Assembly: GCA_947184155.2 (NCBI GenBank)
Contig: CAMXCT020006749.1
Location: forward strand, 199,501 to 263,500
Source: Cladocopium goreaui
Lineage: Eukaryota; Sar; Dinophyceae; Suessiales; Symbiodiniaceae
Length of the DNA stretch: 64,000 nucleotides
Reading direction: 5' to 3'
Below are positions 3,306 to 48,721 of this stretch, one piece after another. Under the pieces are notes generated by a model, which was given only the letters and a program-made list of their open reading frames with translations, did not search any database and was not told where the DNA came from. Each line of letters begins with the position of its first letter. The first letter of the stretch is position 1. Made by a program: the position numbers and the translations under genes.

Positions 3306-3329
3306 CATGGGGCTGGGGATGCTGATACC

Positions 3330-4655: not shown

Positions 4656-4671
4656 AAACTTGAGCAAGTCA

Positions 4672-29328: not shown

Positions 29329-29558
29329 TGCGAATCGGAGATTGCCTGTCCGATTATGTCCTGGTACTTGGTTTTGAAGTAAGTGCTTCGGTGATGACTT
29401 CACTCGGATGGCGGCTTCCGCATGGCAGTTCTTTGTTCTGGTGCTGCAGTGGGTCTTGAGCCAAAGAGGCCAGTTTGATATACCCCTTTGGCATTGGATC
29501 CTAGAGTGTCGAATTATATGTGAATGCACAATGGTACGTAGCCTACACTCTATTCGCA
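29329..29558 (-). repeat. 3' LTR
   Basis: 230 bp, matching 48492-48721 with one substitution at a constant offset of 19163. Short for an element of this size. Confidence 0.95.
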
Positions 29559-29566
29559 CCCCCCAC
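29559..29566 (-). promoter_or_regulatory. Candidate polypurine tract
   Basis: On the coding strand GTGGGGGG directly precedes the TG of the 3' LTR, where plus-strand priming is expected. Confidence 0.6.
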
Positions 29567-29592
29567 GCATAGCCAACTTTGTTGGCTACGCG
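29566..29592. repeat. Inverted repeat next to the polypurine tract
   Basis: Arms CGCATAGCCAAC and GTTGGCTACGCG around TTT, one mismatch in twelve. It could fold as an RNA hairpin near the 3' end of the transcript. Between 29593 and 30079 I see no ORF of the element. Confidence 0.7.
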
Positions 29593-30079
29593 CAAAGGAG
29601 TGTCCTTTAAATTGATCCACTACATTTGCAGCTGTTCATTTATTGAATTATGGAGAGCTAAAGTCCGTTCAGAACTTCAAGTCTACATGGCGGCTTGCTA
29701 CGATCTCTACCAAAAGATAAAAGGTTCTGTTCACGTGCATGTAGACACAACGTAGTCGGTGTCTAGCATTGAGGTTCATCCGATGTGGCGTAGCCAGCAT
29801 GGAATCCCACTCAAGCATGTGAATTAAAATCGAAACACAAAGTTGACTATGGAACTAGAAGTTTACCTTCCCGTTCCTTCGTCGGTTGAGATGTAGACCG
29901 CTGTAGAAACTCAGCGTCTCGTGCAATGATGTTCCAAAAAAAATGTGTGGTTCTAAATTAGCCGGCTCAGAGTCCTCTCAGAAATCATTCGAAATGAAGT
30001 TGAGGTAAGTCTCGAGCAATGATTGCATCCTCGCATCGCCAGGTTCAATCAGGACCTATGCAGAGGTCATATCGATTTA

Positions 30080-33000
30080 TCATCTATATCCCCATCCATA
30101 GTATCCCTGTTGGTTCCAGTCTCCACCACGGTGTGAATAAGATCTTCCACCCTTTCCTTGGTCTTTTCCACCCTTCTGTGGCGGTGTCACTGGAGTTTGT
30201 TTTGGCGGAGGAGCGGTTTCAACTGTTCTCCATGTTGCTGACGATGACGCTTTCGCTTTTGACACTCTGCCCAGTGCTGGTGCTGCTTTCGGAGCTGCTT
30301 TCGATTTGCCAGCGGCCGGGTTAGCGCGTTCGCGATCGGCAGGAGTTGGGGCATCAGCAATCGCAAGTATGTGAGCGTCAGACAAGTGGATGCCCCATCT
30401 TGGTCGTTGATCGTCCCGCTGCTTGATGTGGTTGTAGTCATCGATCGCATCATACAGTTTCTGGAGTAGAGGTCGTGGCAATTGTCGGCCATTCTGAAGG
30501 ATCAGGTGTAAAAGTGATATTCTTCGAAGTGCGGGACGAAGAGCACACACAATGTCAACTGGGTTCAGTGTGATTGTGTCTTGAAAGTCGACGTTCCTGA
30601 AGAAATAAACAGCATTCACCCTGTATGCACCTGCAATGATTCTTCTGACCATGACGTCTTGTCGGTCAAGGGCGTCGCGGGCCGCTGTGGTCTTTCTCAT
30701 CTCATCCATCGTTGTGTCACGTTTCGACAGCTTCTCCATCTCCTCGTCAAAGAAGATATTTTGTAAATCATCATACGTGTAGCCACATTCAAGGGTATAT
30801 ATGAGAAGTCTTTTGAGTACCACTGCCTCATAGTATGCATTGACGAATCCCTCTTCTCCGATGTCGTCCTTTTGATTTGGTCGGCCGATCTCTTTGTAGA
30901 GCTCTTTCATCTGTTGTGCAGTTGGTTCAATGAGTTCACCATTCTCATCCTCGCCTAGGTAAGGCACTCTTGAGTCCAGGTCCATCCTGAATTTCTGGTT
31001 CTGTTGAAAGTGTTTCCATGCCGTCTCGATGTCTCCACAGAAGTTCCGTTGGAATAGTCTGTAGATCCTGACGATATGTAATCCAATCTGCAACAGGAGG
31101 ATCTTGATGAGCTCCGGCTGAGCATCTCCAATTGTGCAAGGCTCGATTGGTAGGACCTTTGATCCAAACTCAACCCGCTTCATCCACTTGGGGTACTCAA
31201 TCACTGCATCACGAGCTTCTCCAGCCTCATACTCTTCAATGTTGATTTCATCGACCGCTATCTCTTCATCGTCATTCTCGTCGGTCGGTTTTCCTTCCTG
31301 ATTGAGAAATTTGTCGACCTCATCTTGTTCTCTGAAGTCTCTTTTCTCATCATTGATGTCGCCCTTCTTCGAGGCTTGGTCATCATCTCCCTCTTCTGGT
31401 TGAGGTCCTTGTTCTGGACTCTTCATGGTGACGTCATCATCATCTGGCATCATCTCGTCGTCATCACCATCACCTGTCAAATCGATCTTCACCTCCTCCC
31501 ACGCTTTCTTGACATGGTCTTTGAGATCTTCTTCTCGATGATGTGATTCGGCACTTGGTACTGTAGCCACGGTGATCTTGATTCGTTTCCTCCATCCATG
31601 ACTCACCAAAAATCCTTTGCACATCACACAAATCGATAATGGTGCAGGGGTCTCCATCAGACATGCGGGGCATAGTCGATGGTCCTCCTTGCTGGGATGA
31701 TGAGTGACTGCTAACAATGATATTGCATCATTCCAATCCGGATGTCCAGGGAACAATCTGTGAGTATGACTGAAGTGACCGGTCTTGATATCGACAAGCT
31801 TTCGAAGTTCGTCCAGATCGGGTGAAGATTCATCAGGCACAATGTTCCCAATGAGCTTGTCAAATCGTTCAATGGTGGCCACCCTCTTTGCTCCTTGCAC
31901 AGAAAGTACAAGTTGATCTCTTCCCTTTGTGATCATGAGACGGTAGTAGTCCTTTTCCCTCCAGTCGTAATACCAAACTGCATCGAATGATTCGAATGGG
32001 ATTGTTTCTTGGACCAAAATGTGTCCGTCTGCTGACAATCGAGGGGAGAACTTGGCGATGGAATCGTACGTGATGTAGATGTAGACAAGATCAGTTTGTT
32101 CAATCTTCCTGAATCTCAGCACCGTCTGACTTCGCGCGTCCCACGGTGCGAATGGCACGAAGAACGTATTGATGCGGTCGCCTCCTCCTCCGGGACGTAG
32201 TCCTTCTCTGAAGATTTGAGCGATGTTGTCAAAAGTGGTGCAGTGAAATCCTCCTCCAAGAGTGTATCCTACTCCAGGGTTCATCTGATAGGAAGTCTTC
32301 TTGTCTTCGATGTGCACACCGCCTTGAACTCTTGAATGTGCCATAGGGGCACGGATTGCCACCGGCCAAAGCCAAATCTCTCGATCTGCCGTGCCGATCT
32401 CCAACCTCAGTGTTTGTCGATCAAGTCTCGAGGTCAATCCATCATTGAAGTTGTTCATGATGTGTTCCAACTCACCTTTTGTGACCTTGAGTCCTAGCAC
32501 TTGAGCTCGGATTCTTTTCGTTTGCTTGTACTCAGTGAAGATCACTCTCTGGAAATTGTTCCACCTCTCAACAAGTATCGGGTAATTGACGTAGGTCGTT
32601 CCAGCCAATGTATGTTGGTCTCTCCAAATGTTGTCGTACTTCAAGATCGACTCGACATTGACCCAACCTGCTTCATCGCATGGTAGTCCACGGTGATTTC
32701 GATTGTCTTTGACGCAACCCACGGAGTGGCGTAGCGCTGCATTGAATCTTTTCGACAATTCGACTATCCATTGCGGATTTTCCCACTTGTTGCCCATCCA
32801 CTCATTCTCGCCATATCGATGTACCTTACACCAGCCCATTCCAAGATATTCTTCTCCATTGATGCGAGCAAGTTGAAGTGTACCAATGTTGTGGCCATGT
32901 GTGAATGGTTGGATGTACTTGAAATTCCAGTTGTCTCCACGTTGTTTCCTTTCTTCAATAAGCCATTTCACATATGCATCGTGGTCAATGGGGTTCCAAG

Positions 33001-34357
33001 CATTCAGCTCTTCAATGGTCGGCAAAACAGGCGGGGATTCCTCAGCCGCACGCTCAATCAGCAAATCAAGCTCATGACGATTCTGCACGCCTCGGCTAAT
33101 TGGGTTGACTTCGACACCATTCACTAAGTATTGTCCTCCTTCTTCACGATCACCAATGTCGTACATAAAGGCTGACTGACTGTAGAAGCACTTGGTCACT
33201 TCTTCTTTCTCAGTGAATCTGGTTCTTCCCCAACGCTTTCCTCGTGGCATGACGTTCTTTGGGAGCTTGTCTTTTCTGCCTCTGGTCGCAGCTTTGGATC
33301 TTTCTGATGATGATGGGGATTTGGACTTCTGATCCATGATCAATCTCATGCGCCATAGGGTGTCCTTCATGTTCTCGTCATCTGGTGTGGTACATTCATC
33401 AATGTCATGCATCCCACCACAAATGAAACAATTTTGAACACTCGATGCGTCTGCGATCAGCTTCTCAAATCGATCACGGATGTCCCGCACCTCAGTTCGG
33501 CGCTTCTTCGCTTCTGAAGGTTGTCCCCCCATATCCTCTTCCTCCTCTTCATTCTCAATGTCACCAGCTCCGGCATCGGTCTCTCCTGAAGTCTGTTCTG
33601 TTCGAGGGCCCCGCGCCGTAGGCGTCGTGGTCTCCTCATCAGGTTCGCCAACTTCATCCTCCTCCTCATCGCTTGACGAGACCTCAATCATTTCAGGATG
33701 GTCATCGTAGTTGGCTTCCGGGAGCACCGGCATTCTGGTGATCTTCTTCTGCATGAGTAGGTCGAAGATTCCCGCTTCTTTCAGAATCGTTATCACCATG
33801 TTGTTCTCGACCGGCGGGATGTATGCTTTCCTGGATCGGTTTCGCTTTGTGTTGATGGTGTCGGTAGGTCGACATGAACTGCTGAATAGCCAAAACGACT
33901 CTTCCAGTCCTGCGAGGCAACTGTCAAGGTTTGCCCCCCATCCAGCGAACATAGTAGGGAATTGAATGCCCAGGTCAAGCATTCCAAGCCAGAATTCGAA
34001 AATGTCGCCGACATATTCAGCTGTTGCTGTTGGATTGAGCATTGATGCGATCTCCTCCTTGGTCAGCACTGTCTTCATGTAGTCATGATAAGCGACGTTT
34101 CCACCATCCCAAAGCAGTCTGTAAAACCATCGCATTCGGTGCATTCCGCCTCCGCAATCCTCTGTTCGAGTTTCACGTTGTACAGTGAATTGGGGTAACA
34201 GGTCTCGTCTGCATTTCCCTTTCACCATGTATGCAGGCATTCGGATGGCACCTCGATGTGATACCTGTTTGAGCACATCGCTTGTCGTCCTGTATCCTGA
34301 AAGCATTGCAAGTGTCGCAGTGACTAGGAATCCACGGAGGTCCTTCTCGGCTTCCAT
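30080..34357 (-). CDS. Retrotransposon ORF5: protein with Tpt1/KptA-like 2'-phosphotransferase domain
   Basis: 1425 codons from ATG 34357. Residues 1-210 are helical. An acidic stretch and a zinc-knuckle-like CFICGGMHDIDEC (C310, C313, H317, C322) follow. About 533-800 resembles Tpt1/KptA: LSKRFNAALRH (R543, H544), DEAGWVNVESIL, IRAPMAHSRV (R669, H674), FHCTTFDNIAQIFREGL (H705), then LVYIYITYDS and ETIPFESFDAVWY. In known enzymes the Arg-His, the Arg of IRAxxGHS and the HGT loop bind NAD+ and the RNA 2'-phosphate. Here the HGT is FHCT. CPAC (896-899) and CVMC (910-913) form a possible zinc ribbon. An acidic region, a helical region and a Gly/Gln-rich tail end the protein. It shares its frame with ORF4 upstream across a single TAA. 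Confidence 0.8.
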   Translation of the reverse strand: MEAEKDLRGFLVTATLAMLSGYRTTSDVLKQVSHRGAIRMPAYMVKGKCRRDLLPQFTVQRETRTEDCGGGMHRMRWFYRLLWDGGNVAYHDYMKTVLTKEEIASMLNPTATAEYVGDIFEFWLGMLDLGIQFPTMFAGWGANLDSCLAGLEESFWLFSSSCRPTDTINTKRNRSRKAYIPPVENNMVITILKEAGIFDLLMQKKITRMPVLPEANYDDHPEMIEVSSSDEEEDEVGEPDEETTTPTARGPRTEQTSGETDAGAGDIENEEEEEDMGGQPSEAKKRRTEVRDIRDRFEKLIADASSVQNCFICGGMHDIDECTTPDDENMKDTLWRMRLIMDQKSKSPSSSERSKAATRGRKDKLPKNVMPRGKRWGRTRFTEKEEVTKCFYSQSAFMYDIGDREEGGQYLVNGVEVNPISRGVQNRHELDLLIERAAEESPPVLPTIEELNAWNPIDHDAYVKWLIEERKQRGDNWNFKYIQPFTHGHNIGTLQLARINGEEYLGMGWCKVHRYGENEWMGNKWENPQWIVELSKRFNAALRHSVGCVKDNRNHRGLPCDEAGWVNVESILKYDNIWRDQHTLAGTTYVNYPILVERWNNFQRVIFTEYKQTKRIRAQVLGLKVTKGELEHIMNNFNDGLTSRLDRQTLRLEIGTADREIWLWPVAIRAPMAHSRVQGGVHIEDKKTSYQMNPGVGYTLGGGFHCTTFDNIAQIFREGLRPGGGGDRINTFFVPFAPWDARSQTVLRFRKIEQTDLVYIYITYDSIAKFSPRLSADGHILVQETIPFESFDAVWYYDWREKDYYRLMITKGRDQLVLSVQGAKRVATIERFDKLIGNIVPDESSPDLDELRKLVDIKTGHFSHTHRLFPGHPDWNDAISLLAVTHHPSKEDHRLCPACLMETPAPLSICVMCKGFLVSHGWRKRIKITVATVPSAESHHREEDLKDHVKKAWEEVKIDLTGDGDDDEMMPDDDDVTMKSPEQGPQPEEGDDDQASKKGDINDEKRDFREQDEVDKFLNQEGKPTDENDDEEIAVDEINIEEYEAGEARDAVIEYPKWMKRVEFGSKVLPIEPCTIGDAQPELIKILLLQIGLHIVRIYRLFQRNFCGDIETAWKHFQQNQKFRMDLDSRVPYLGEDENGELIEPTAQQMKELYKEIGRPNQKDDIGEEGFVNAYYEAVVLKRLLIYTLECGYTYDDLQNIFFDEEMEKLSKRDTTMDEMRKTTAARDALDRQDVMVRRIIAGAYRVNAVYFFRNVDFQDTITLNPVDIVCALRPALRRISLLHLILQNGRQLPRPLLQKLYDAIDDYNHIKQRDDQRPRWGIHLSDAHILAIADAPTPADRERANPAAGKSKAAPKAAPALGRVSKAKASSSATWRTVETAPPPKQTPVTPPQKGGKDQGKGGRSYSHRGGDWNQQGYYGWGYR

Positions 34358-34381
34358 TTCTCTCCAGTCAACGCACTCATT

Positions 34382-36424
34382 TTAGATGTTGAGCAATCTT
34401 GCAGCTACTCTTGCATCCTGTGAAAATTCATCCATCCCAATGTCCTCAGTTCCGTAGATTGCCGCTCTCGTCCAATTGCTTGCGCAATTCAGGCATCTTG
34501 TGCGGTTCTCAGTGCAGGTATTCAATCTCGAATCATTTTTGTGAAATCCTTTGCACACATCGCACATCAGTTCGGAATCTTCGGTTACCTCGACCCAATG
34601 CTCATCCACATCTGTCAGGGGCTCCGGGGTAAATACTCCTCGTCGGATGTCTGACCATGCTCTCCTCTGGACTGCATCCTTCATGTGCTTCATTCCTCCA
34701 ATGATGTTTGCTGATCCAGCTTGAGCATCTGTGACCTCTCCAGCACGAATGCTGGGAATAATTCGTGGATGTTCTGTGCATCGTTTGATGGTTTCAATGT
34801 CAAATCCGGTGTTCTTCACATGGACGCATTCTTCATTCAGGTCATGAACTGTATCATGATCCATTGCACAATGTAAGAAGACCTTCTGTCGCATCAATGA
34901 CTTTTCAAGCATAGCCCAAATGACTTCCTTGCCTTCACCTTCTTTCCAATAAAAAGGCTCACGTCCACAAGCATATATCTGTTTCCAGAATCTTTCATTG
35001 GTGGAGTGAATAATGCCCTTTTCCTTCAAGATTCTTGCAAGCTCCTCGGCCATGGATACAATCGAAGATTGGGACCCAAGAAACCGGGCATCTCTCAGAA
35101 TGTTGACGAAAATTGGAAGATGTGCTGCTTGGCTGATCTCAGTGATGATCTCTGCCAATTTGGTGATGAAGTCTGCATTTGGCATCAGTATGCGAGTTTG
35201 TCCTCTGAAAAGTGCTGCGAAAGAGATCCAAATATGAACAGTGGCACTTGAGAACGCGTTGGCGTTGGTTCGTAGGAAAGTCAATGCATTCGTTGCCAGT
35301 TTCAAGAAATCCTCGGGTTTCTCCAGAGATTGAAGTTGATACACCTTGATGGATGAAAGACCCATGTTGTCGAGCCCAGCCTCGATGTCATTGACGATTC
35401 TCGAGCTAGATCTCGTTTGGTAAGTCAAATCCGTCAAGATGAGAGCTTTGTTGTTCCTCACTTGTCCTCCCAATTCATCCCATTTGTCTAACCAGGGTTC
35501 CCCGATGATGAACTGTCCAATCTTGTTTCCCAACTTCTTGAGCTTGGCTCGAATCTCGCCCTCCACCGTATCTTCAATGCCCAGTGTCAACATAGCTAGG
35601 ACCTCCGTCACAGGATATCCTTTGCACCTGACAAACTCTGTGGTCGTGATGATGTAGTGGTAGAGCTTCAGCCATTCGTAGTCATTCTCATTGATCATGT
35701 GGGAATCAAGTTGACCTTCTGTCAGCATGTTGAAAGACAGGGCAGCATGAAATGTCAATCTTCTCAAATACTGCTTCCAGATCAAATTGGATCCATACTT
35801 GTGAGTAGTGTGAGGACCCTCTACGATGGAGAGCACAAAATCCTTGCCGGATCGCAGGAATGCAATTCGCTGTTCCTCACGAGCATAGTCTTCGGCAGCA
35901 TGGAGGCGCACTTCCACGGTTGAAGGTTTCCTTCTTTTTATCCAGTCTTCAGTTGGAATCCAATTCTCATCTCTTTCTGGTTCAGCACGACCTTGAGATG
36001 TTGCTCCAGGTCCAGATCGGAAAGCTGCATGGGTCGACGAAGATGAGGCTCCGCCAGTCGATGATCTTGGCATCTTCTTCGGTTGAATGTTCGAACTTTG
36101 TGACTGTTGCGATGCCTTTGGTTGTGATCCCTCTGTAGGAGCGGATGTACCCTGGGCGCTAGGTCCAGTTGATGTGTCATCATTCACCCATGAAGGCTCC
36201 TCATTGTTCCAGAAGTCAACCTCGTATGGTCGTCGTCCGTCATTGAAGGTCAGGGGAACATCCCAGTTGTCGAAATTGTGCATGCCTCCGGCTGTACCAG
36301 CTTGAGTCTCGGTCATCACGGTGGTGAAATCTTTGAGAGAGCTATGGCAGGCATGCCGTCTTTCCTTCTCAGTATATCTGGCTCCTTCATCGGCAATCGA
36401 GACATTGTATCCATGCCCATGCAA
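34382..36424 (-). CDS. Retrotransposon ORF4: unknown helical protein with C-terminal Cys cluster
   Basis: 680 codons from a TTG-opened frame; the first ATG is residue 36 (about 36319). The N-terminal third is low-complexity (Ser, Gln, Pro). About 170-560 is helical and globular (FLRSGKDFVLSIVEGPHTTH, LIWKQYLRRLTFHAALSFNM, FIVNILRDARFLGSQ-like). Near the end CDVCKGFH..C..RCLNC could hold zinc; CxxCKGF recurs in ORF5. The stop TAA is followed in the same frame by eight sense codons and the ATG of ORF5. The start overlaps the end of ORF3 in the +1 frame. No family recognised. Confidence 0.65.
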   Translation of the reverse strand: MHGHGYNVSIADEGARYTEKERRHACHSSLKDFTTVMTETQAGTAGGMHNFDNWDVPLTFNDGRRPYEVDFWNNEEPSWVNDDTSTGPSAQGTSAPTEGSQPKASQQSQSSNIQPKKMPRSSTGGASSSSTHAAFRSGPGATSQGRAEPERDENWIPTEDWIKRRKPSTVEVRLHAAEDYAREEQRIAFLRSGKDFVLSIVEGPHTTHKYGSNLIWKQYLRRLTFHAALSFNMLTEGQLDSHMINENDYEWLKLYHYIITTTEFVRCKGYPVTEVLAMLTLGIEDTVEGEIRAKLKKLGNKIGQFIIGEPWLDKWDELGGQVRNNKALILTDLTYQTRSSSRIVNDIEAGLDNMGLSSIKVYQLQSLEKPEDFLKLATNALTFLRTNANAFSSATVHIWISFAALFRGQTRILMPNADFITKLAEIITEISQAAHLPIFVNILRDARFLGSQSSIVSMAEELARILKEKGIIHSTNERFWKQIYACGREPFYWKEGEGKEVIWAMLEKSLMRQKVFLHCAMDHDTVHDLNEECVHVKNTGFDIETIKRCTEHPRIIPSIRAGEVTDAQAGSANIIGGMKHMKDAVQRRAWSDIRRGVFTPEPLTDVDEHWVEVTEDSELMCDVCKGFHKNDSRLNTCTENRTRCLNCASNWTRAAIYGTEDIGMDEFSQDARVAARLLNI

Positions 36425-37352
36425 TCAGGATTCCCTGAGGAATGTCAAAGACCTTGAGGATCGAGAACTGGATCTCGGACAGCTCTGCTACTCTCGGCAA
36501 GTTTCCATCTCCTCGAGCGCTGGTCTTGTGTCTTTCAAGGGTCGTGCCGAGGGCTAACAAACACAAGAAATGGTTCTGGGCTGCACTCCTTCCTTTCGGT
36601 TGATTGGTTTCGAAAGCAACCACATCCTTCATCACATCCTGCAAGATGATCTTATCTGATGGGTTCTGCTCATTGTGATACCTCAATGCATGTCCTAGGT
36701 GCCTCATCTGGATTTCAATCATGTGCTTCATTGCCGTCAAATAGCTATCATTGTCAGATGGAGACTTCGGATTCACCTTGGTCAACTCGTCCATGACTTT
36801 GAAGTACTCGGCGGTCCTTGTCACAGCTAACCATGATGTGGCACTCGGATCTGTGTTGAATGATGGTGTTCCTCGATAAATTTGTTTCATGCTTCGGATC
36901 TTCGCCTCAGTTTCTGCTGCAGTGGCTTGATCATCAAAAGGTTCGGGAAAATGTCCTTTGGACAATACGATCCAGAGCTCATCAAGTCTGTCATAGATCT
37001 CCTTGTCCATGAAGCGTCCCACAGTTGCATCATCATATGGGCACCTGCTAGCAAAGACCTTCACGAATCTCGACCCTTTTGACAAAAACTCCCATCCTGA
37101 ACACCCCTTCTCGATGTCCTGCGCTCTTTGCAACAACTTGTAGGCTACCTCCAGGGCTTGTGCAGTGGCTTCACTGGTGTGTCTGGAGTTCGCGAAGTAT
37201 GCTGAGTAGACAACTGCAGGCGGCATACCAAACCTAATCCATTGGTTGGCTGTGTCCTCATCTGAGATCAGTCGAAAATTCGAACCTCGGGTGTCTCGGA
37301 ATGGTGATGGAGTCTTGGCTGCAATGGTTCCTTCGGACAATCCCTTCAGCAC
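36387..37352 (-). CDS. Retrotransposon ORF3: unknown helical protein
   Basis: 321 codons, with no ATG at the opening (GTG at 37352; first in-frame ATG in FGMPPAVVYSAYFANSRH). Mostly helical, with ATAQALEVAYKLLQRAQDIE, ELWIVLSKGHFPEPFDDQAT and MKHMIEIQMRHLGHALRYH. Composition and helix content would suit a capsid-like protein, but I see no diagnostic motif. It ends at a TGA inside the start of ORF4; a +1 shift in the 38-bp overlap would fuse the two. Lack of a good start suggests expression by shift or readthrough, or a defect. Confidence 0.55.
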   Translation of the reverse strand: MLKGLSEGTIAAKTPSPFRDTRGSNFRLISDEDTANQWIRFGMPPAVVYSAYFANSRHTSEATAQALEVAYKLLQRAQDIEKGCSGWEFLSKGSRFVKVFASRCPYDDATVGRFMDKEIYDRLDELWIVLSKGHFPEPFDDQATAAETEAKIRSMKQIYRGTPSFNTDPSATSWLAVTRTAEYFKVMDELTKVNPKSPSDNDSYLTAMKHMIEIQMRHLGHALRYHNEQNPSDKIILQDVMKDVVAFETNQPKGRSAAQNHFLCLLALGTTLERHKTSARGDGNLPRVAELSEIQFSILKVFDIPQGILIAWAWIQCLDCR

Positions 37353-37510
37353 TCGTAATGCAACGGTCTTCCAGCGAATTGTCCTACTGAGTTCAGATCA
37401 TGGGTTTCGGCCATCCCGCTTTGTACAGAATAAAGTCGCACGGACCGTAGGTCTCGTGACAACTGTTCGAGCAGCGGAAATAGTTGTACGAACCGTAGGT
37501 CTCGTAACAA
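37353..37510. other. Spacer between the RT ORF and the extra ORFs
   Basis: 158 bp holding a direct repeat, ACCGTAGGTCTCGT at about 37443 and 37492. In-frame stops precede ORF3. It could be a subgenomic start region or splice acceptor, but nothing proves it. Confidence 0.5.
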
Positions 37511-40500
37511 TCAGTCGGAGTCGAATTCAGAAAGCGGTTGACACGAAAATGAAAAGTGCCACGAAGAATGAACCGAAGTTGATGTCAATCTCGAAAAGCA
37601 CCAGTGCAGTAGCGATCGCTCGAACGAAAGGTCAATGGCGTCGAGCTCTCGAATAGCACAAACGGATGTTGCCACCGACTTGATTGGGTGACTGCGGACA
37701 TTCTCGGAATCACGAGACATTTCAGCTTTCAGTTGTTCATCACATGCAAGCGGCTTCCAACGTTTCATCACTCTGACGTTCACAAATGGACTATTCCTGA
37801 TTACATGATCATTAATTCCATTCATGATTATCTTGGCTATCCACTTAGTGTAAACTTGAGTAATGCGAGTTTCCCTACCGGCACACTCAGCATGGTCATG
37901 ACGGCGATCACATCTTCTATGAAGCTTTGGAAAAGACACCCCCCATGCAACAATCTTCCAAGGTTTCTTGATTGGTTTGGGAGTCTCTTGGAACTGTGAT
38001 TTCAAGCCATACATGCATCCATCAAATTTGTGTTCATGAGATACGGTTCCTTCCACAAGATCAGTCATTCTACGGTCCTTCCAGTAGTCACAACCTCTAG
38101 GCAATTCAAGCAAGGCTGGTGATCCCATGTTGATAAGTTCACTTAGCACTGATGCAAACACTTCCCACATCGCCCAGAAGATCTGCTTCTTTGCTTCGAT
38201 GAGTTGTGTTGTTGCTTCGCTCACCCATCGGTTGATTCGGTTCCATGGTGAACCTCCTGTACATGGACCTGCAAAGAACATTGAATCAAGTTTGGTCCGA
38301 AGGCATCGCCTTGCTTTACTGATTCCGTACGGAGAGAGCATGTCGTCATCTTCAGTGATTGGCACGACATGAAACTTCATTTCGTCCTTCATTTTGTTCT
38401 GCAAGAACGTAAACCAGTTTCTCTCTTCCGAACATAACAAGACGAAGCATGGGACTGCTTGAGGAACTTCGATCAAATTGATTGCAAGGGAAAACTTCGC
38501 AAATTTTGATGTCATCAAGTCACAAGGTGATTTGGAAAATTGAAATTCCAAAGTTCTGTTTTTCTTTTCTCTCCAAAGGATTACCGACACTTTGGGATGG
38601 TCAACCTCATGTTTGCCTACTTCGACGTGATATTGATAGGGGACAAAAACATCAGTGATGGGAATAGTCTTCACGTCATTGCAATTGGTGCACAGCGTGA
38701 TTACTCCCTGACTCACTTTACAGTTCTTACCTCCATCGATCACTTCAGCATTGGCGAGCACCTTGAATGTCGATTTTCCAGTCCAAAATTCATTCAACTT
38801 GTTTGTTGATTCATAATTGTCGCCCTTGAATCTCCATATGTCTTTGATCACTCGAGTATTGGTTTTGAACTTTTGTTCAGTTTCCCTCTCATCACATATG
38901 ATCCTAGGGTCACAAGGACAGTCTTCGCAATCCTGTGGTACAAAGTTTTGCCTTCTTGGCGTTTTGTGAATTCGGATCAATGTCTCTTTCCCATCCCACT
39001 GCCAATGATCTTCATTTTTCTTACCTAACACTTGGGATTTTCGGGTGGATTTTACAAACGGAATGTTATCATTGATGTCCAATTCCGGATGCGTATGACA
39101 TAGGCCAGGTGTTGAAGTGGACTGTGGGTGCCCTTTTTCACTGTGCGAATGCCATCCTTCACCCTCACTCCCCCCATGAACAAGGCGCATAAGCGTATTG
39201 ATCACACGTGTGGCTGGCTGAAGGCACTGGTGAATGGATTTCGGGTGTTGAGACGGTGATGTCTGTGCATCTAAAAACAAGGCATCAACCGAGAACATCA
39301 GCATTGGTGAATCGGTCAGATGCTGTACACGGTCACGTGGTGTGGACGCACACGAGTCACGTAGTGAGCTCGAGTGGGCAGGCGGGGCATGCACGTGCTT
39401 TGACGACATCACCCGGTGGGTTGAGGTCGTTGAAACGGATTGTGAAACAGTGTCCGGGATCAACGGCTGCTTGTTAGGCGAATGGTACTGAAAACACGCT
39501 CGTTCAACCCACTTATCAAATCTGATAGCCTGCTCTGGTGGAGATGCACGGTGTTCGACCTTTGTCCAGGCACCATTGAGAAGAACCCATGTGGATCTCA
39601 ATACATCTGGCGGCACGATTAAGCCGGGCGGCTTAGGACGATAAAACACCGGTTGCTTGACGACAAAAATGGGATCCATACCTGGCAAGTATTGTAGCTT
39701 CTCTTTACTAGTCAATCCCTTCCGATACACTTCTTTTGGCAAAATAGGGGTTTCCGTGTATGGGAAGTTTGGGATGTCCTCAGTTTTGGATTGGAAAACT
39801 TGGCGAGTAGTCATATCGACATCGGTGCTTGGCTGCAACATGTCTAATACTTCTTTGCTCTGCAAGTCCTGAGGCTCCAACAAATTGATTAGCATACAAG
39901 CTTTCTTCCATGCCATGGGATTCTTGAACCCTTTAGTATGGATATCGGCTGCCATTTTGGCTGTAATTTCATAGATCAATACAAAATGATCCTTTTGGAA
40001 ATGTTCATGCATGGAGGCAATGGAAATACCATGTGTGCGCTCCAAATGACGCATGGTTGGATTCCGTCCTGATCTGACAACACCAATCATACCTTGATTA
40101 TCGTCATGAAACAGGAGTTGAGGAAAAACTTTGGCTAAGACTTTCCACAGACTTAATGCGGGGATTCCTAGAGTCCTAAGTGCAGTATCTGCAGCCACAA
40201 TTTCAGCTTCGGGGGTAGAATGACTAACACACCCTTGTCGCTTACTTCCACCAGCAAGTGGGAATCTTGTGAACTTACCTTGGACTTGTAAGTGCGATCC
40301 TGAAGTTGATCTCAAGGATTGGGCACATCCAGCGAAATCCGCATCTGCAAATAGTCCTAATGATAAATCTTCAATTTTGTCTCCGACCCATCCTATCATT
40401 TTGAGGGACAATGTGGAATTAACATAACACATTAGGTGATGAAGACGGGCGTCATCATCCTTTGTCCATTTAGTCACATTACGTGCTAATGCATTGATGG

Positions 40501-41803
40501 ATCTCAACAGGTCAAACCGCGCAATGCGGGCTGCATAAAGCAGCTTCATAAGCACACTAGCTGCATGCGGAGCTAGATTCCCACGGCTCAGCGTCTCACT
40601 GTCTTGGCCAGGACGTGAGTTGCCAGTCTCGGAGAGAGCAGGCATATCTGGATCGAAGGAATGTGCACACCAAGGACACTCAACTTTGCGTTTTCCATCG
40701 GAAGGAGCTCGATACGGGCTGCTTTTCGTTTCCTCTGGAAGGCTTGGAGTTGATACCTTTTTCAATTTTGTGTCCTTACCGATGATGTCAAGATACTTTT
40801 CCACCGATAACTTTAACAATCCTTCCATGTTATAAGTTATGGTCTTGACTTTCTTACCATTATGCAATTGCGTTTCACCTTGGGATAAAACACATCCTAA
40901 GTAAAGTCCCAAGTCGGTTTCGGGTTCAATGCGCAGAACAGTGCGCAGCATTTCCCAACCTTTGGCCAGATTTTCGGAGGGCCCAGCAAGCTTAAGGTCA
41001 TCCACATAGATTACCAACAGCAATTTGAGCTCATCATGAAAATACATAGAAGGCCATTCCTCTCCAATGGGCTTAAAACCAATTTCTTGAACTTTCTTGT
41101 CACAATGTTGTTCCCACATCGTGCCTGAATCAGGGTGTCCATACAGGGCTTTGTCGAGTCTTACGACAGGGCGACGGAACTTCCAATACTGTATCTCCGG
41201 AGGCCATGCATCAGTGGGTAACTCCACCCAACACAAAGGTCCCTTCAACTTAGCCTGGATGTAAGCCTGAATCGCATCTGCCAACTTGACGGAGTGCCCA
41301 GGAAGACATCCGTAAAAATCTGCCCATCGTGAGGCTTCGAAGGAAGCAGGGGAATTTCCCAAGTCTTGGAAGAATGCTGCCTCCCAATGCTGATTCTTCA
41401 CCTGATTTCCTAGCAGAACGCCTCTTCCCTTGAATTTTCGTCCAGGATTGTCTTCTGACAGCTGGTAATTCTTTTCCACGCATATGCCATGGACCCTGGC
41501 CATATGTACTTCCTTTTTGTTCTTCTTGGCCTCTGCAACAACATCGTCGTATTCACGAACCATTGTAAAGTCGAATACCTCTTGATCATGAAGGCCTTTC
41601 CACTCCTTGAGCATTGCCTCTTTGGCCTTTGGGTTAGACTCAATCTCAGCTCTGCCCACAGGTCGTGAAACCATTGCGTTGAAAAGTTTGCTTCCAAGGC
41701 CTTCTGAAGGTATCTTGGTTCGGTGACTTTGACTTGATGCAGAAGTACACGGCATAGTTGGGAAAGGGATGTATTCATCATCATCAGTGGCTATGTTCTT
41801 CAC
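37511..41803 (-). CDS. Retrotransposon ORF2: Copia reverse transcriptase - RNase H with long C-terminal extension
   Basis: 1430 codons in the same frame as ORF1, separated from it by one TAA at 41822-41824. There is no ATG at the opening (GTG), so readthrough or a nonsense mutation is likelier than an independent start. RVT_2-type RT: EAMLKEWKGL, then AFFQDLGNSPASFEASRWAD, RRPVVRLDKALYGHPDSG and the active site YVDD at 266-269. Copia RNase H: LFADADFAGC, STSGSHLQVQG, STPEAEIVAADTALR, FHDDNQG, ADIHTKGF. The tail (about 660-1430) is unusual: a Cys cluster DCEDCPCDPRIIC, CTNC, then at 1176-1330 FFAGPCTGGSPWNRINRW, LLELPRGCDYWKDRRM, FDGCMYGL, KKPWKIVAW and RRCDRRHDH. This series resembles a methyltransferase-like module. 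Confidence 0.9.
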   Translation of the reverse strand: MKNIATDDDEYIPFPTMPCTSASSQSHRTKIPSEGLGSKLFNAMVSRPVGRAEIESNPKAKEAMLKEWKGLHDQEVFDFTMVREYDDVVAEAKKNKKEVHMARVHGICVEKNYQLSEDNPGRKFKGRGVLLGNQVKNQHWEAAFFQDLGNSPASFEASRWADFYGCLPGHSVKLADAIQAYIQAKLKGPLCWVELPTDAWPPEIQYWKFRRPVVRLDKALYGHPDSGTMWEQHCDKKVQEIGFKPIGEEWPSMYFHDELKLLLVIYVDDLKLAGPSENLAKGWEMLRTVLRIEPETDLGLYLGCVLSQGETQLHNGKKVKTITYNMEGLLKLSVEKYLDIIGKDTKLKKVSTPSLPEETKSSPYRAPSDGKRKVECPWCAHSFDPDMPALSETGNSRPGQDSETLSRGNLAPHAASVLMKLLYAARIARFDLLRSINALARNVTKWTKDDDARLHHLMCYVNSTLSLKMIGWVGDKIEDLSLGLFADADFAGCAQSLRSTSGSHLQVQGKFTRFPLAGGSKRQGCVSHSTPEAEIVAADTALRTLGIPALSLWKVLAKVFPQLLFHDDNQGMIGVVRSGRNPTMRHLERTHGISIASMHEHFQKDHFVLIYEITAKMAADIHTKGFKNPMAWKKACMLINLLEPQDLQSKEVLDMLQPSTDVDMTTRQVFQSKTEDIPNFPYTETPILPKEVYRKGLTSKEKLQYLPGMDPIFVVKQPVFYRPKPPGLIVPPDVLRSTWVLLNGAWTKVEHRASPPEQAIRFDKWVERACFQYHSPNKQPLIPDTVSQSVSTTSTHRVMSSKHVHAPPAHSSSLRDSCASTPRDRVQHLTDSPMLMFSVDALFLDAQTSPSQHPKSIHQCLQPATRVINTLMRLVHGGSEGEGWHSHSEKGHPQSTSTPGLCHTHPELDINDNIPFVKSTRKSQVLGKKNEDHWQWDGKETLIRIHKTPRRQNFVPQDCEDCPCDPRIICDERETEQKFKTNTRVIKDIWRFKGDNYESTNKLNEFWTGKSTFKVLANAEVIDGGKNCKVSQGVITLCTNCNDVKTIPITDVFVPYQYHVEVGKHEVDHPKVSVILWREKKNRTLEFQFSKSPCDLMTSKFAKFSLAINLIEVPQAVPCFVLLCSEERNWFTFLQNKMKDEMKFHVVPITEDDDMLSPYGISKARRCLRTKLDSMFFAGPCTGGSPWNRINRWVSEATTQLIEAKKQIFWAMWEVFASVLSELINMGSPALLELPRGCDYWKDRRMTDLVEGTVSHEHKFDGCMYGLKSQFQETPKPIKKPWKIVAWGVSFPKLHRRCDRRHDHAECAGRETRITQVYTKWIAKIIMNGINDHVIRNSPFVNVRVMKRWKPLACDEQLKAEMSRDSENVRSHPIKSVATSVCAIRELDAIDLSFERSLLHWCFSRLTSTSVHSSWHFSFSCQPLSEFDSD

Positions 41804-41821
41804 GTTCTTGACGTTAACACA

Positions 41822-44800
41822 TTAGCCATTTTTGATCATTGTCGACTCTCCTGGCGTAGCCATGGAAAACCTCGAAATCTCACCTGACAATGTGCTCCAA
41901 ACTTCACCACTCCACGATGCTTTTGGGCCACGTCCTCTCTCGACCTCCGACCATTCATCCCATTCAGTGAGATATTCCTCGTCGTCCGGGACGTCAGTAG
42001 AAGCATCGGAACATGGACTAGCATCAGCATTCCTCTTCACTTTTCGACAATCAATGTATCGTCTTCCATGTACATCGTCATCATCGACTATGTCGTACAA
42101 ATCAAGATACGTACTTGTACATGTGATAGGTAAGGTAACTTTGTTCTTCACAACTTCACCAACACCTGCATCGGATTTCTTTGACTTTGAATGAGAGTCA
42201 TCCTTCTTACTTTCATCACCACCTTCATCGTCCTTGGACTTTGGCTCGTCTTTGTCTTTCTTTGAATCTTTCTTCTCCTTCTTCGTTGCCTTCTTCTTCT
42301 TTTCTTCGACCAATCTTTTGGCTTTGTCATCGGCCTCTTTCTTCTCCAACTTCTTCTTCTCGGCTTTGAGGATGGTATTCCGGTCAGACTGAGAGAGTTT
42401 ACGCCATTCTTCAGGAGAATAGGTCCCTTTGGGACGCAATGACGTTCTGAACATTCGTCTACCGTCATCTCCAATCTTGTATGGGTAACCCTTGACGTTC
42501 AACTTGACCTTCTCACCATCGTCATTGAGGTATATCTTCCCATCTCCGGCTTTGCCCTTCTTCCAATGGTCTGGTTGGGCGTCGATCAATTCCTGGAGAG
42601 TCATCTCTTCTGGATCTTTGTCTTTGTCGAAGATATCCTCGGAGTCGTCAAGAGGCTTCTTTGAAACTTTTCCACCACTTGGTCCAGGTCCACCGTCGTC
42701 TCCGTCATCAAGCTCATCATCATCCTCATCTTGGTCATGTTCTTCGTCATCTCCATGAGGCACTTTGGAGGGATCGCCATCGAGGATTTCTCTTTCTTTC
42801 ATTCCTTCCAATGTGGTGTTCACCCTCTCATATTCTTGCTTGCACGGAAATGTCAATGGAGTGACCATCTCGACCTTTTCAGTCAAATGAGGTTTGAGAA
42901 GACGGTGTTCAGGTTTGCTAGCATCGTCACCAAGATTCTGATGTACGAATTCACTCAGAGGCCATACTTTGTATTGTCTTGACCAATGCATCCCTGGACC
43001 AATGTGATACCCTGCAAACACTCCAGGAATAGAGTCAGGCCCGAACTTATGAAGTTGTCCTGCTTCTCTGGTCTTCGGAGGCTTGTAGTTCACACGAGCA
43101 CCATAGGGAATGAGTTTGCCAGCAAATTCAGATCCATGGAGTTTGCACCAAGCGCTCAATTCATCATCGTTGGGTTCTACGTTGAGTAGATGACATACAC
43201 AAAGGATTGCTGTTCTCCAGAAACAAGGTGGTAATCCAGCTTCCAAAAGACATGTAGAAGTAGCTGTGAGGATAAATTGGTTCGTCCTTTCGGCAATTGA
43301 ATTGGTTTGAGGTCTCCCAGGCAACGAATGATCAATTGGTATCTTCATCTCATTCATAGCTTCAATGAATTGAGGAGCATGATCAGAGTAGGCCTGTCTG
43401 ACCTTCTTGGCGCCGATGAACTGTTTCACTGCTCTGACTACATCGTCTTTGGTCATTCTGTCAGATGGATAAGCACCTATGATCCCTGTAAAACAGTCTC
43501 TGACAACCAACACTTCCTTCTCGAGGACCAACACGTCATCATGGACTTTGGATGTGTCCACCGCATCAAAGGTAATGAGGTCGCCAAACTTCTTGAGTTC
43601 CCTCTTGTATGCACCACGACGAGTCTTGAAGTGCTTCATCTTTGCTCGAATGCATGAGTCGCAATATGGATTCTTGTATCTGTGGGTCAACTTGTGATTC
43701 AGGCTGTTAGCTTCTCTCTTGAGTGTTCCTCTTTTGGCTACCCTGGATTCACCTTCGACAACATCGATCTCGATGTCATCTTCATCACCTTCAGCGGCAT
43801 CTTCAGGAGCACCATGACCATCATCCTCGAAGTCAGTCTCGTCCCCAGGAAGATCGTCAAGCGGGGTTCCTGGTTCGTACTCGCCGCCCTCAGGTGGTTC
43901 TTCTTCTTCTTCTCCAGGAGTTGCCAAATGTTTCTGTCGGTTCATTGCTCTTCTCTTCTTCTTCACCTTGAGTTTCTTGACATATCGGGAACAATTGTGG
44001 CCCTCAATCGATGTCTCAAGACCACTTTCTCCATCGAGATGTACTCTTCGTGAGGGTTGACCAACATCATCAATGTCGTTGAAATTGTTGAATCCGACTT
44101 GAGAATGTGTCAATAGGTCATGGATCTTTGATGCATGATGGCATTCATGAGGAGTGCATTCGTATGTTCCAAGATCAACGTAGGGGATGTTGTCATGGAT
44201 TGTCAGATCGATGCGTTCTCCATTCTTCGTAATCATGAAAGGCATTTGACCAGATGGCCATACAAAGGAGTATCCTTCTTCCATGCATCGTTTCCCAAGA
44301 GACATCACGGACGGAGTGTCGTCCAGCACATAAGCATGAGAGGTCACATCAAAGGTTCCCAGGTCAATCTCCGCTTCCGTTTGAGTAGCAGTTGAACCGT
44401 TGGCGGTGTGGAACATGATAGGATCACAAGTTCGTTGCTTCAGGCTCATCCTTTCGGCTTTCCTTGCAGAAATCAGATCGTGTCCGCTACCAGAATCCAG
44501 AATGAATCTGCGATCTTTGGCTTGTACTGGAAGTGAAATGCACATTATATTCTTGGACTTCATGAGGGAGTTTCCGATTTCGTGCTCAACAAGCTCCTCA
44601 ATAAAAGTCAAGTCATCACGATCATTGTCCAGTTTGATCAACATGTCGAACTTGGGGCCAATAATGATTCTAACTTCATCAACAAAACGATGGAGTCCAC
44701 ATCTGTCCATGATGATAGCTTTGGCCCGTGCCCGGATTGAACCGAGGGCGTTGTCGGATTTGGACTGATCGTCGGTCAGATCATCGACCTTCCAGAAGAC

Positions 44801-47800
44801 ATACGGCTTGTTGGGGTCACGATACATACGCTTGGGTAATCCCTCCAGGTAGTTTTCAATAGCGATCTCGTGCACTTCAGGTTCCAGTTCAAAAGAGATC
44901 CTGCGATCATCAGAAGACTTCTTTGCGCTGGCTATCCTCGGTGAGGTATAATCCATAGAATCTTCATTGTCGCTATCAAAGAAGGAGTCAATGGTAATGG
45001 GAGTTGCTTTCTTCTTTGGTGTCTTCTTGCTGGCTCTTTCTGAAGATGCTGAAGGCGATTGATCTGCATGTAGGAATTTACATTTGCTTCCGAACGTGCA
45101 GGTACCCTTTTGCCAATTCCAACATATCTTCTTCTTGGGTCCAGCTGAAGATGAACTTCCTCTACCTTTCCCTCTTGATGAATCTCGACTTCCGCTTCTG
45201 CCTTTCTTACCTTTCATCTTGGCATCATAGACCTTCTGAGAATGACTGTAAAGACATTTGTCACCTTTGTTGCATCCTCCTTTATTGAAGAAGTAGTTAC
45301 AGAAAATCTTCTTCTTGTCAACGGGTGAAGATGATCTTCCCTTCCCACCTTTGCCTTTCTTGTTGTTCTTGTCGGCATGAGATTTCGGAGAAGGTGTAGG
45401 AAGTACTGATGCAGCTTCACTCTTCGCTTTCGCCTTAGGCCGTTTGGGAGGATCACCTGTAGACGATGCAGCTGCTTCATTCTCCTTCTTGGTCTTGACG
45501 GGAGCGGCAGGCATGTCTGCATCTTCTAAGGCAGGTGTCGTCTTGTTAGAGGACAATGACAGTTTCACTGCACGTTCTCTATCCTTCAACAGTCGTTCTT
45601 GCTTTCCACGTGCTATGTATCCTTTGATCATACCAGTTAGGTAAGCATAGGTCTTCTCAGGATGCCCTTCATCAAAGGTTTTGTATCGGTTGATATCGAA
45701 GGCCATAAGCTTTGAATGTTCAATCTTCCGGAACAGTGTGTCACGCAGGGAATTGTTGGAAGGCAGATCATCATGTTTCATATTGTATACGATGTCAAGC
45801 CACTTGTTGTAGAAGGCCTCAAGTTGGTCATCTCCATAGTAGTTGAACATATACAAATGATGGGCATTGTAGAGAACTTCGGTGTGGTCAGGTGATTTGA
45901 AGCTAATCAGTATCATTGCAAATAGTTCTCGTCCCTTGATGAAGTCCCCACTTCTCCCATACAATTGGTTCTTCATGGACATGTCATACTTCACTTGCAT
46001 GGACTTGTCCCCAGCATTGTCAATGACTTTCCTCAAGGCATTGGAGAGCTTGGCATCAATGGATTGGAATCTCACATCGGGTGCTTTGGCCAGAGTTTCC
46101 AAGTCAGGTTGATCTGCAAGACACGGAGCTAGCCATGCTTTCCAATCTTCATAGTTTCGATCTCCACTTGCAACACAAACTTCATGAACGACACTTCCCT
46201 TCCAGGATGAAAGTTCAGTGGTCTTAGGCCAGGGTTGGAGGCTGATCTTTTCGGCTTCTCTTAGAGATACGGATGACTTGGATCTATCCCTTTCAAGGTT
46301 CTCCAACTCCTTGACATTGGTGTTGTACTCGTTCCTGAGCTTTTCGAAAGCTTCAGCTTCTGCTCGGTATTCCTGCTCTTCATCATTGGCACGATCTTCA
46401 GCTTGAGAGAAATTGTTCTTGTAATAATCTTTCCGATTTTCCATCTTCTTCAACTCATCTTGAAGATTTCGAATTTCGGCGTTCCTCTCCTGCTTCTTTT
46501 CGTCCAACTCTGCTTTCAGTTTGGCACACTTCTCTTCACATTCATTCCGAGGCATAGCATTACTGGGGTACCCATGTAATGTAGTCGGTCTATTCTTTGA
46601 TGAAGAAGAATGAGCTTGATTTTCCAACTTCAGGGCAGCAATAGTGCTCGACATCTCTTCTACCTCAGCGAAACGCTCATTGGCCAATTGATGCATCTCA
46701 GTCAAGTGGCTTTCAGGAATGGAATAGTCAGTCGCACCTTTGATCACGAGTCTTCTGTCGTTCAACATCTTGATGGACTTACCTGCATCCCTGTGAGCAC
46801 GCTCAAGAGAATCCTTTTGGGCTTCAAGTTCAGTATGAAGGCGAGCAATAGCCGTGTCCCTGTCATTGATTTCATTGTGCAAACTGTCGAACAAGTTACT
46901 CGTCACATTCGGATTGTTGCTCATGTGATCGATCTTGTTCAGAGCATCTTGATATTTCTTACCAGTTTCATCGAAGTTTCGCTGGAAGACTTTGAGCAGG
47001 TCCTCAGTGTCAATGAGTTCAGTTCTGTTCTGCAAGTACAACTTGTCAACTTCAGCCTTGGATTCCTTCAAGCTGTCACGCTCACGCACGGCTTGCATAT
47101 ACATCTCGTATAGAGGTCCTTCATGCGGTGATCTGCTTGGTGAAGATCTTCTGGCTTGTTGACAGGAAAGTTCATGATACTGATTCTTCGATTCAGTCAG
47201 TTGTTGTTGCATTCGATCTAAAAGACTTTGTCTCATGTGTAGTTCAGAACGTAGTCCCATTATCCTCATGTCCCGCATGCCGCCTGATTCAGCTAGAGAT
47301 TCTTCAGAAACCCTGTTCTCAGAAATCGCTAGTCGAGATTGTAGGTTCTCATTTTGAATCATCTGCAAGCGAAGTTGTGATTCTTCCAAAGCTAAATGAT
47401 GTTCACATTCTGCATAACGGTCATGTTCAGATCTTATGTTACTACGGAACTCCTTCATGATCTCGTCCCTCTTCATGTCAGCAGCATCGAGCTCAGTTTC
47501 CAGTCGTCTAACGTTCATGGCCATGGTGTGCTTCATTGTCTGGTTTTGATTGGCAACCTCGAGCATCTCGATCTGTAAAGCACATGTTTGGTCATTAGCG
47601 TAGCCGACCGCTAGAGCTTCTTGCTTGGCATTCATCTCTGCGTTTTCCAGTTCCAGTCTGAGTTGATTGATGTGAGCATTCGCATCAGCGCCCACATGTA
47701 CCATGATTGCGCTCGCTTGTCCCATTTGTTCATCGAATTCCGAACGTAGTCGTGAATATTTGAATTCCAAATGAGATGCAGCTTCATTCGACATAGTCTG

Positions 47801-48433: not shown

Positions 48434-48491
48434 CTGTAAGGCCCGCGGCTACCCGCTCGTAGGCTCCGTAGGAGTCCTACGGCTGATAACC
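48434..48491 (-). promoter_or_regulatory. Leader with candidate primer-binding site and hairpin
   Basis: Just inside the 5' LTR the coding strand reads GGTTATCAGCC, close to the TGGTATCAGAGC primer site (initiator tRNA-Met) common in Copia elements but with one extra T. A perfect dyad CCGTAGGA/TCCTACGG lies at 48466-48482. Confidence 0.45.
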
Positions 48492-48721
48492 TGCGAATCG
48501 GAGATTGCCTGTCCGATTATGTCCTGGTACTTGGTTTTGAAGTAAGTGCTTCGGTGATGACTTCACTCGGATGGCGGCTTCCGCATGGCAGTTCTTTGTT
48601 CTGGTGCTGCAGTGGGTCTTGAGCCAAAGAGGCCAGTTTGATATACCCCTTTGGCATTGGATCCTAGAGTGTCGAATTATATGTGAATGTACAATGGTAC
48701 GTAGCCTACACTCTATTCGCA
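48492..48721 (-). repeat. 5' LTR
   Basis: Partner of 29329-29558. In coding direction it starts TGCGAATAGAGTGTAGGC and ends CGATTCGCA. Transcription should start within it; no clear TATA box was seen apart from AT-rich words. Confidence 0.95.

Follow-up and report, generated by a model that had tools for sequence, protein, structure and literature searches.

A Tpt1/KptA-like domain in the polyprotein of a giant Copia-type retrotransposon of Cladocopium goreaui

We analysed a stretch of 64,000 nucleotides from the dinoflagellate Cladocopium goreaui (contig CAMXCT020006749.1; hereafter the window) and found in it a Copia-type retrotransposon bounded by long terminal repeats (LTRs), whose open reading frame 5 (ORF5) holds a domain like the RNA 2'-phosphotransferase Tpt1/KptA (Pfam family PF01885). 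The domain was similar to Tpt1/KptA, its active site was conserved, it lay between the LTRs, many copies were open through it, and the ratio of nonsynonymous to synonymous substitution (dN/dS) was low. We hold with moderate confidence that this is a young, high-copy, giant Copia element whose polyprotein contains a captured, diverged Tpt1/KptA domain past the reverse transcriptase (RT) and RNase H, and that selection has kept the domain working.

The domain and the element around it

The five Tpt1/KptA motifs named in the initial annotation of this DNA were all located in ORF5, on the minus strand and where it had put them (Table 1), and its proposal of a Tpt1/KptA-like domain inside a Copia-type element was borne out by profile matches, active-site residues, open-frame copies and low dN/dS. 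PF01885 was the only Pfam family to match ORF5 at E ≤ 1, with 22.6 bits (E 1.2e-4), under its curated cut-off of 26 bits; with the domain cut to residues 515-830, the score was 28.3 bits (E 2.2e-6), over the cut-off. The same family was matched at E ≤ 1 in all eight members of alignment A1 and at E ≤ 0.01 in 14 of the 15 members of a wider alignment, A6 (the window included in both), while ten scanned relatives all matched at E ≤ 0.1, seven of them over the cut-off. Three of the five long homologues scanned had no PF01885 match, nor did three of the nine distant ones, and an NCBIfam scan of ORF5 gave no match.

Profile and structural comparison had been proposed as a check of the domain, and its profile half was positive. 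When the family was compared by hhalign with seven Tpt1/KptA sequences (E. coli KptA, three bacterial loci of six fetched, and three PDB chains), a score of 61.2 was obtained (probability 95.5%, E 1.3e-8), compared to 23.0 for the best of 100 column shuffles; earlier alignment sets gave 58.9 and 47.1, compared to shuffle maxima of 24.9 and 25.7. Alignment A1 compared with E. coli KptA alone did poorly (probability 3%). The family profile searched against PDB sequences found three distinct sequences at E ≤ 10, all Tpt1 and all weak (E 0.11-0.15), and PDB sequence searches with ORF5 alone, the narrow A1 profile or the relative P0213 found no Tpt1 chain. The domain shared with Tpt1, KptA and TRPT1 the order of motifs, an Arg-His pair, an IRA..GHS-like motif, HxT, and GL followed by Arg, with profile similarity that spans the RNA lobe and reaches into the beginning of the NAD+ (nicotinamide adenine dinucleotide) lobe. 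It differed from them in being embedded in a retrotransposon polyprotein.

The element shared with Ty1/Copia its LTRs, a protease, integrase motifs upstream of the RT, RNase H downstream of it and an RVT_2 match, and it differed in its length of 19.4 kb, in a long C-terminal extension past RNase H that includes the Tpt1 domain, and in a frame exceeding 6,000 codons in some relatives. In the order protease-integrase-RT-RNase H, the protease and RVT_2 were identified by Pfam, whereas the integrase and RNase H were identified by motif only. The integrase-like D, D and E of ORF1 are a motif pattern with spacings of 60 and 30 residues (30 from the second D to the E), and the Pfam scan gave no integrase match there. 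The ATATA in both flanks may be a 5-bp target duplication of the window copy, but it lies within a TA-rich simple repeat and is unproven there.

ORF5 had been treated as a protein of its own, which is probably not the case: relatives have a longer frame running through it. ORF1, ORF2, ORF4 and ORF5 have one frame in common and ORF3 lies off it, so the window copy is interrupted. In many relatives the frame runs on uninterrupted to ORF5 from ORF3 or ORF4, and in four (P0031, P0033, P0115 and P0122) it does so from the end of ORF2. In 9 of the 126 genomic copies scored, the frame holding the domain had 6,125-6,162 codons, a length that would roughly take in everything from the beginning of ORF1 to where ORF5 stops. 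ORF5 is probably the C-terminal part of this longer frame. Within ORF4, positions 34685-35557 of the window looked SGNH-like by eye; an AlphaFold model of residues 290-580 (24 rows) had a predicted local distance difference test score (pLDDT) of 46, too weak to say.

Table 1. Features of the element in the window (positions are those of the window)
Feature	Position	Strand	Basis or remark
Copia-type LTR retrotransposon, 19,393 bp	29329..48721	-	LTR pair, RVT_2, motif order protease-integrase-RT-RNase H
5' LTR, 230 bp, TG...CA ends	48492..48721	-	229/230 identity with 3' LTR
Primer-binding site GGTTATCAGCCGTAG	48477..48491	-	directly after 5' LTR
ORF1, 2203 amino acids (aa): gag-like part, two CCCH zinc fingers, aspartic protease, integrase-like motifs	41822..48433	-	Pfam and motifs
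ORF2, 1430 aa: Copia RT and RNase H	37511..41803	-	RVT_2 35.6 bits, E 9.4e-9; motifs; in frame with ORF1
ORF3, 321 aa, no assigned function	36387..37352	-	continuous with ORF4/ORF5 in relatives (e.g. P0007, P0014)
ORF4, 680 aa, no assigned fold	34382..36424	-	in frame with ORF5
ORF5, 1425 aa, holding the Tpt1-like domain; probable C-terminal part of a longer frame	30080..34357	-	
CX2CX3HX4C zinc-knuckle-like motif, ORF5 residues 310-322	33392..33430	-	pattern; similar Cys/His stretch in distant relative P0277
Tpt1/KptA-like domain (PF01885), ORF5 residues 532-763	32069..32764	-	Pfam; last motif of the initial annotation ends at 31970
Motif LSKRFNAALRH	32758-32726	-	
Tetrad Arg543-His544	32726..32731	-	R543 in 116/117 and H544 in 117/117 rows with a letter
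Motif DEAGWVNVESIL	32677-32642	-	
Motif IRAPMAHSRV	32356-32327	-	
Tetrad Arg669 (IRAPMAHS)	32351..32353	-	120/121 rows; Cys in 1/12 genomic copies
Motif FHCTTFDNIAQIFREGL	32248-32198	-	
H705-C-T707, counterpart of HGT	32237..32245	-	H and T in 121/121 rows; middle Cys in 120
Arg728, probable fourth tetrad Arg	32174..32176	-	120/121 rows; 11/11 clade B rows
Motif IPFESFDAVWY	32002-31970	-	
CX2C...CX2C zinc-ribbon-like motif, ORF5 residues 896-913	31619..31672	-	pattern; also in distant relative P0225
Polypurine tract GTGGGGGG	29559..29566	-	precedes 3' LTR
3' LTR, 230 bp	29329..29558	-	repeat pair; ATATA in both flanks

Active site and selection

A search with ORF5 residues 480-880 yielded 130 proteins, of which the 120 listed, about 62-93% identical, were aligned with the window for the active-site counts (four rows lacked the start of the domain). 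Loss of the Arg-His-Arg residues in related copies had been named as grounds for giving up the domain assignment, and across these rows the residues were kept in all but single cases. The HGT motif of Tpt1, KptA and TRPT1 reads HCT in the window domain; the initial annotation had noted this correctly and had left activity open on that account. Both contact residues, His and Thr, are kept in the predicted protein, and the middle residue is Gly in relative P0168. Arg728 was assigned as the probable fourth arginine of the tetrad by its spacing from the HGT motif as in CthTpt1 (His101 to Arg121), with three extra residues, and hhalign leaves its exact column dependent on the alignment. R773 had been considered for this position and was dropped on the spacing comparison with CthTpt1.

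Only 3 of 718 cells at the six active-site positions were off consensus, compared to 2240 of 35347 across residues 520-815, and random positions matched for residue type reached that constancy with P 0.012 (121 rows) or P 0.020 (13 representatives). A more distant group, clade B, was reached by a profile search and a third search; its members were 25-32% identical in the alignment, and some of them were similar to ORF5 on both flanks of the domain. In an alignment with 11 clade B rows, the consensus was shared at 70 of 240 compared columns, yet at all six active-site positions. In the alignments, the window family keeps the residues needed for 2'-phosphotransfer and for 5'-end ADP-ribosylation, the fourth arginine with some reserve.

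The genome that holds the window (1.17 Gb, 6202 contigs) was scanned for copies of the window family. All 126 copies scored (the window included; 903 candidates) were stop-free in the domain, 96-100% identical, and either full length or one residue short. A subset of 12 (the window together with 11 more from the scored set) gave a dN/dS of 0.093 over 66 pairs (median 0.092, range 0.030-0.214; dS 0.03-0.28), and 11 copies of a sister family, represented by element d below, gave 0.046 over 55 pairs for the Pfam-matched part, which excludes the first Arg-His, and 0.024 for the RT; these values lean low because copies were taken from best-scoring lists and stop-free ones were picked. Despite this sampling bias, nonsynonymous change still lay far under the synonymous rate. 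Selection kept the domain in the copies examined, which suggests that the element needs it in order to spread.

Other carriers of the domain in the genome

In the same genome, 150 of 1496 candidate PF01885 matches were scored, and the scored matches listed exceed the cut-off. Three of them (174-180 bits) resemble ordinary Tpt1s, L008 being eukaryote-like and L009 and L010 closest to E. coli KptA. The latter two (G000:C5523:6512-7012 and G000:C1:767266-767763) are bacterial-looking and may represent contaminant contigs or horizontal transfer.

More than 100 other matches, of about 45-54 bits, lay in uninterrupted reading frames as long as 4,039 codons, and two of these loci were examined. Element d (C1597) has 173-bp LTRs by BLAST, 100% identical, with GAAAG as target duplication, and its frame runs to 4028 codons; window ORF2 aligned to it at 44.6% over 269 columns, and PF01885 scored 47.1 bits downstream of the RT in the same open frame. 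The repeats of element e (C2768) are 135 bp long and 99.3% identical, its duplication is GTATT and its frame has 3924 codons; it showed 45.8% identity to window ORF2 and a PF01885 match of 44.7 bits, likewise downstream of the RT in the same open frame. RVT_2 fell under its own cut-off in both (16.6 and 22.2 bits, respectively).

A further 22 matches (L011-L032; 92-101 bits, frames up to 2,760 codons) belonged to what we read, from the order of coding motifs, as a second, DIRS-like element type with the Tpt1 domain between the RT and a putative tyrosine recombinase. Three representatives (C2112, C945 and C680) had, in order, RT motifs (DVxEAFKW, LMDD), RNase H, the Tpt1 domain and tyrosine recombinase motifs; the exact patterns were present in 3/3 for the RT, 3/3 for the HSLRFGG-type recombinase motif, 2/3 for RNase H (GDNQ) and 2/3 for the tyrosine. 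A Pfam scan of two DIRS-like ORF2s at E ≤ 0.01 matched PF01885 alone, with neither a recombinase nor an RT match. When the PDB was searched with a profile of the three representatives, 13 distinct Tpt1 sequences matched, the best at E 1.2e-17; an integrase also matched (E 0.19). The dN/dS of the DIRS-like domain was 0.134, 0.175 and 0.062 in three groups (7, 4 and 4 distinct sequences from 7, 10 and 4 loci, respectively; L031 and L033 excluded). In a domain tree of 172 columns, the Copia domains adjoined the genome's own eukaryote-type Tpt1, L008, with support ≤ 0.785, and the two together fell within a wider group with the DIRS-like domains; no conclusion on origin was drawn.

Possible tasks, precedents and meaning

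Several observations weigh against a captured domain that selection has kept working. The structural half of the proposed check failed: an AlphaFold model of the domain (29 rows) reached a pLDDT of 33 and a predicted template-modelling score of 0.19 and was unusable, and because the model failed, Foldseek gave no PDB match at E ≤ 0.001. Judged by sequence, similarity to the solved Tpt1s is weak. Tetrad residues are replaced in single relatives (S at 543 in P0121, W at 669 in P0024, H at 728 in P0101) and residue 669 is Cys in one of the 12 genomic copies compared; elements d and e have Gly in place of the first tetrad His, and the second tetrad Arg is Ala (AAWSGH) in three inspected DIRS-like representatives (L039, L042 and L045). 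His544 and Arg669 are 125 residues apart, compared to 49 in CthTpt1, some 75 extra, and the RxxVHLS stretch is replaced by RINTFFVPFAPWD (reading RINTFF), so the substrate or the chemistry may have changed. The downward lean of the dN/dS values belongs here as well.

If the domain works, it would bind NAD+ and transfer an RNA phosphate to it, or leave ADP-ribose on the phosphate, and it may do so on RNA of the element itself, or on the primer, in the course of reverse transcription. Tpt1 transfers the RNA 2'-phosphate to NAD+ in two steps for which the tetrad is reported as essential (PMC6333775), and the same tetrad is described as essential for 5'-end ADP-ribosylation by human TRPT1 (PMC6582358). 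The likeliest task would be cleaning RNA ends or 2'-phosphates so that the RT can start or pass; repair, marking or evasion of decay, the roles suggested in the initial annotation, are conceivable. A task broader than the primer alone is favoured because DIRS-like elements also carry the domain, and for that reason general clean-up of RNA ends or 2'-phosphates is ranked first, with primer healing and 5'-end capping as its specific rivals.

An alternative that we regard as rather unlikely is the repair of element RNA nicked by host-defence RNases, or the erasing of 2'-phosphates that block the RT, as distinct from work on the primer. This would suit Copia and DIRS alike, but the Pfam scan of the element matched neither an RNA ligase nor a 2H domain, and we know of no internal RNA 2'-phosphates described in dinoflagellates. 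Such a role has been proposed for viral KptA (PMC9503650), and KptA/Tpt1 expressed in E. coli are reported to erase an internal tRNA 2'-phosphate (PMC9095486).

Primer healing, which we regard as unlikely, holds that a 5' half of a transfer RNA (tRNA) cut in the anticodon arm primes the RT and that the element's Tpt1 removes the 2'-phosphate left after the cyclic phosphate is opened, giving an extendable end; it calls for a putative host tRNA gene holding CTACGGCTRATAACC. Drosophila copia is primed by a tRNA half, and cleavage within the anticodon arm commonly produces a cyclic phosphate. The window element shares its primer-binding site, directly after the LTR and identical in sequence, with the one element compared from each of the Copia families L047 and L050 (elements d and e). 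The complementary sequence, CTACGGCTGATAACC, would fit the 5' side of an anticodon stem followed by a 7-nt loop (CTGATAA) and two stem bases, so that the site would resemble the end of a 5' tRNA half. The path from 2',3'-cyclic phosphate through a 2H esterase to KptA is a described route (PMC9503650), but the Pfam scan showed no domain in the element that would open a cyclic phosphate. The domain is also carried by DIRS-like elements, which to our knowledge are not known for tRNA priming.

At positions 48440-48491 of the window, the primer-binding site runs into a palindrome, CCGTAGGAcTCCTACGG, which recalls the hairpin described at the same place in fungal GalEa Copia elements (PMC5445492); it was absent from the bases compared in d and e.

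Capping of ends is likewise an unlikely reading, in which the domain would put ADP-ribose on the 5'-phosphate ends of element RNA or complementary DNA (cDNA) as a shield against host nucleases or sensing. TRPT1 and KptA are reported to ADP-ribosylate 5'-phosphorylated RNA, and TRPT1 also DNA, through the same tetrad (PMC6582358), but these precedents are in vitro. In RslTpt1, replacement of the second tetrad Arg by Ala slows the second step much more strongly than the first (PMC6333775), and the DIRS-like representatives with Ala at this position may for this reason produce stable ADP-ribosylation. The window family, on the other hand, retains this arginine, and the Pfam scan of the five ORFs gave no match to a macrodomain or to another ADP-ribose domain.

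The weak similarity, the long insert and the tetrad substitutions in sister families would also suit a non-catalytic remnant, whose fold would serve the polyprotein only by binding RNA or by its structure. This is doubtful, since the active-site positions vary less than others of the same residue types, both in the window family and in clade B, and dN/dS is low, though dN/dS alone is no proof of catalysis. That the match is due to chance, or to a host gene beside the element, is highly improbable: the whole-ORF score is under the Pfam cut-off and the structure model failed, but the domain lies between the LTRs, its frame is continuous with the element in relatives, sister families score higher and the shuffles argue against it, so this explanation was rejected.

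No Tpt1/KptA domain in a retrotransposon was found in the open-access literature (subscription papers and preprints lay outside the search, and searching by enzyme name was limited); the initial annotation knew of no Copia element described with such a domain. Two papers that mention KptA, Tpt1 and retrotransposons (PMC4053983, PMC3549820) were set aside as unrelated, PF01885 appearing in gene tables only. The closest precedents in dinoflagellates are the methyltransferases in LINE and DIRS elements reported by De Mendoza et al. (2018; PMC5890265): SymbioLINE-Dnmt and SymbioDIRS-Dnmt3 share with the window element a captured enzyme within retroelement ORFs, purifying selection and conserved catalytic residues, whereas their chemistry is DNA methylation and that of the window element would be RNA-phosphate/NAD+ chemistry. 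The abundant Copia elements of Symbiodinium are described there as being without any DNMT domain. Among viruses, a survey of NAD+ and ADP-ribose functions lists KptA in a few polyproteins (PMC9503650); in the Beihai picorna-like virus and the Botrylloides leachii nidovirus, KptA is likewise fused into the polyprotein of an RNA-replicating element, but these are positive-strand RNA viruses, unlike the window retrotransposon. No stretch in a viral contig collection matched patterns built from the domain. Captured enzymes in retroelements are thus already known, and it is the RNA-phosphate chemistry, as predicted, that would be new here.

Elsewhere in the window, an ORF at 10317-13511 matched the C-5 DNA methylase family (PF00145, E 4e-7) and adjoined 326-bp direct repeats (8593-8918 and 9014-9339, 99.7% identical). 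It lies between two ORFs matching parts of a met-zincin (DUF5117 at 17462-18643, DUF4953 at 5417-6526), and the region 5417-18643 possibly holds a SymbioDIRS-Dnmt3-like element inside a host gene. Long tandem arrays were present at 57798-60666, 3306-4662 and 1642-2680; the first overlaps a stretch of about 28% G+C (56001-60000), the rest of the window being mostly 43-57%.

Tpt1/KptA occurs in all domains of life, and in most organisms its role, tRNA splicing in fungi and plants aside, is called elusive (PMC6582358), with the erasing of a tRNA 2'-phosphate in thermophilic archaea as an exception (PMC9095486). That the domain is kept under purifying selection in so large a number of elements points to a testable, selectable role in the handling of RNA or cDNA. 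An RNA-modifying enzyme would thereby join the DNA methyltransferases known from dinoflagellate retrotransposons (PMC5890265), and the domain can serve to mark out a large group of giant Copia elements. It is quite unlikely, though conceivable from the sequences, that two retrotransposon orders in one genome recruited Tpt1 chemistry into their replication, with the Copia domain maturing the 3' end of a tRNA-half primer and the DIRS-like domain, whose second Arg is Ala, acting as an RNA ADP-ribosyltransferase. If this is true, NAD+-dependent handling of RNA phosphates would be a new step in retrotransposition and would give Tpt1 a role outside tRNA splicing.

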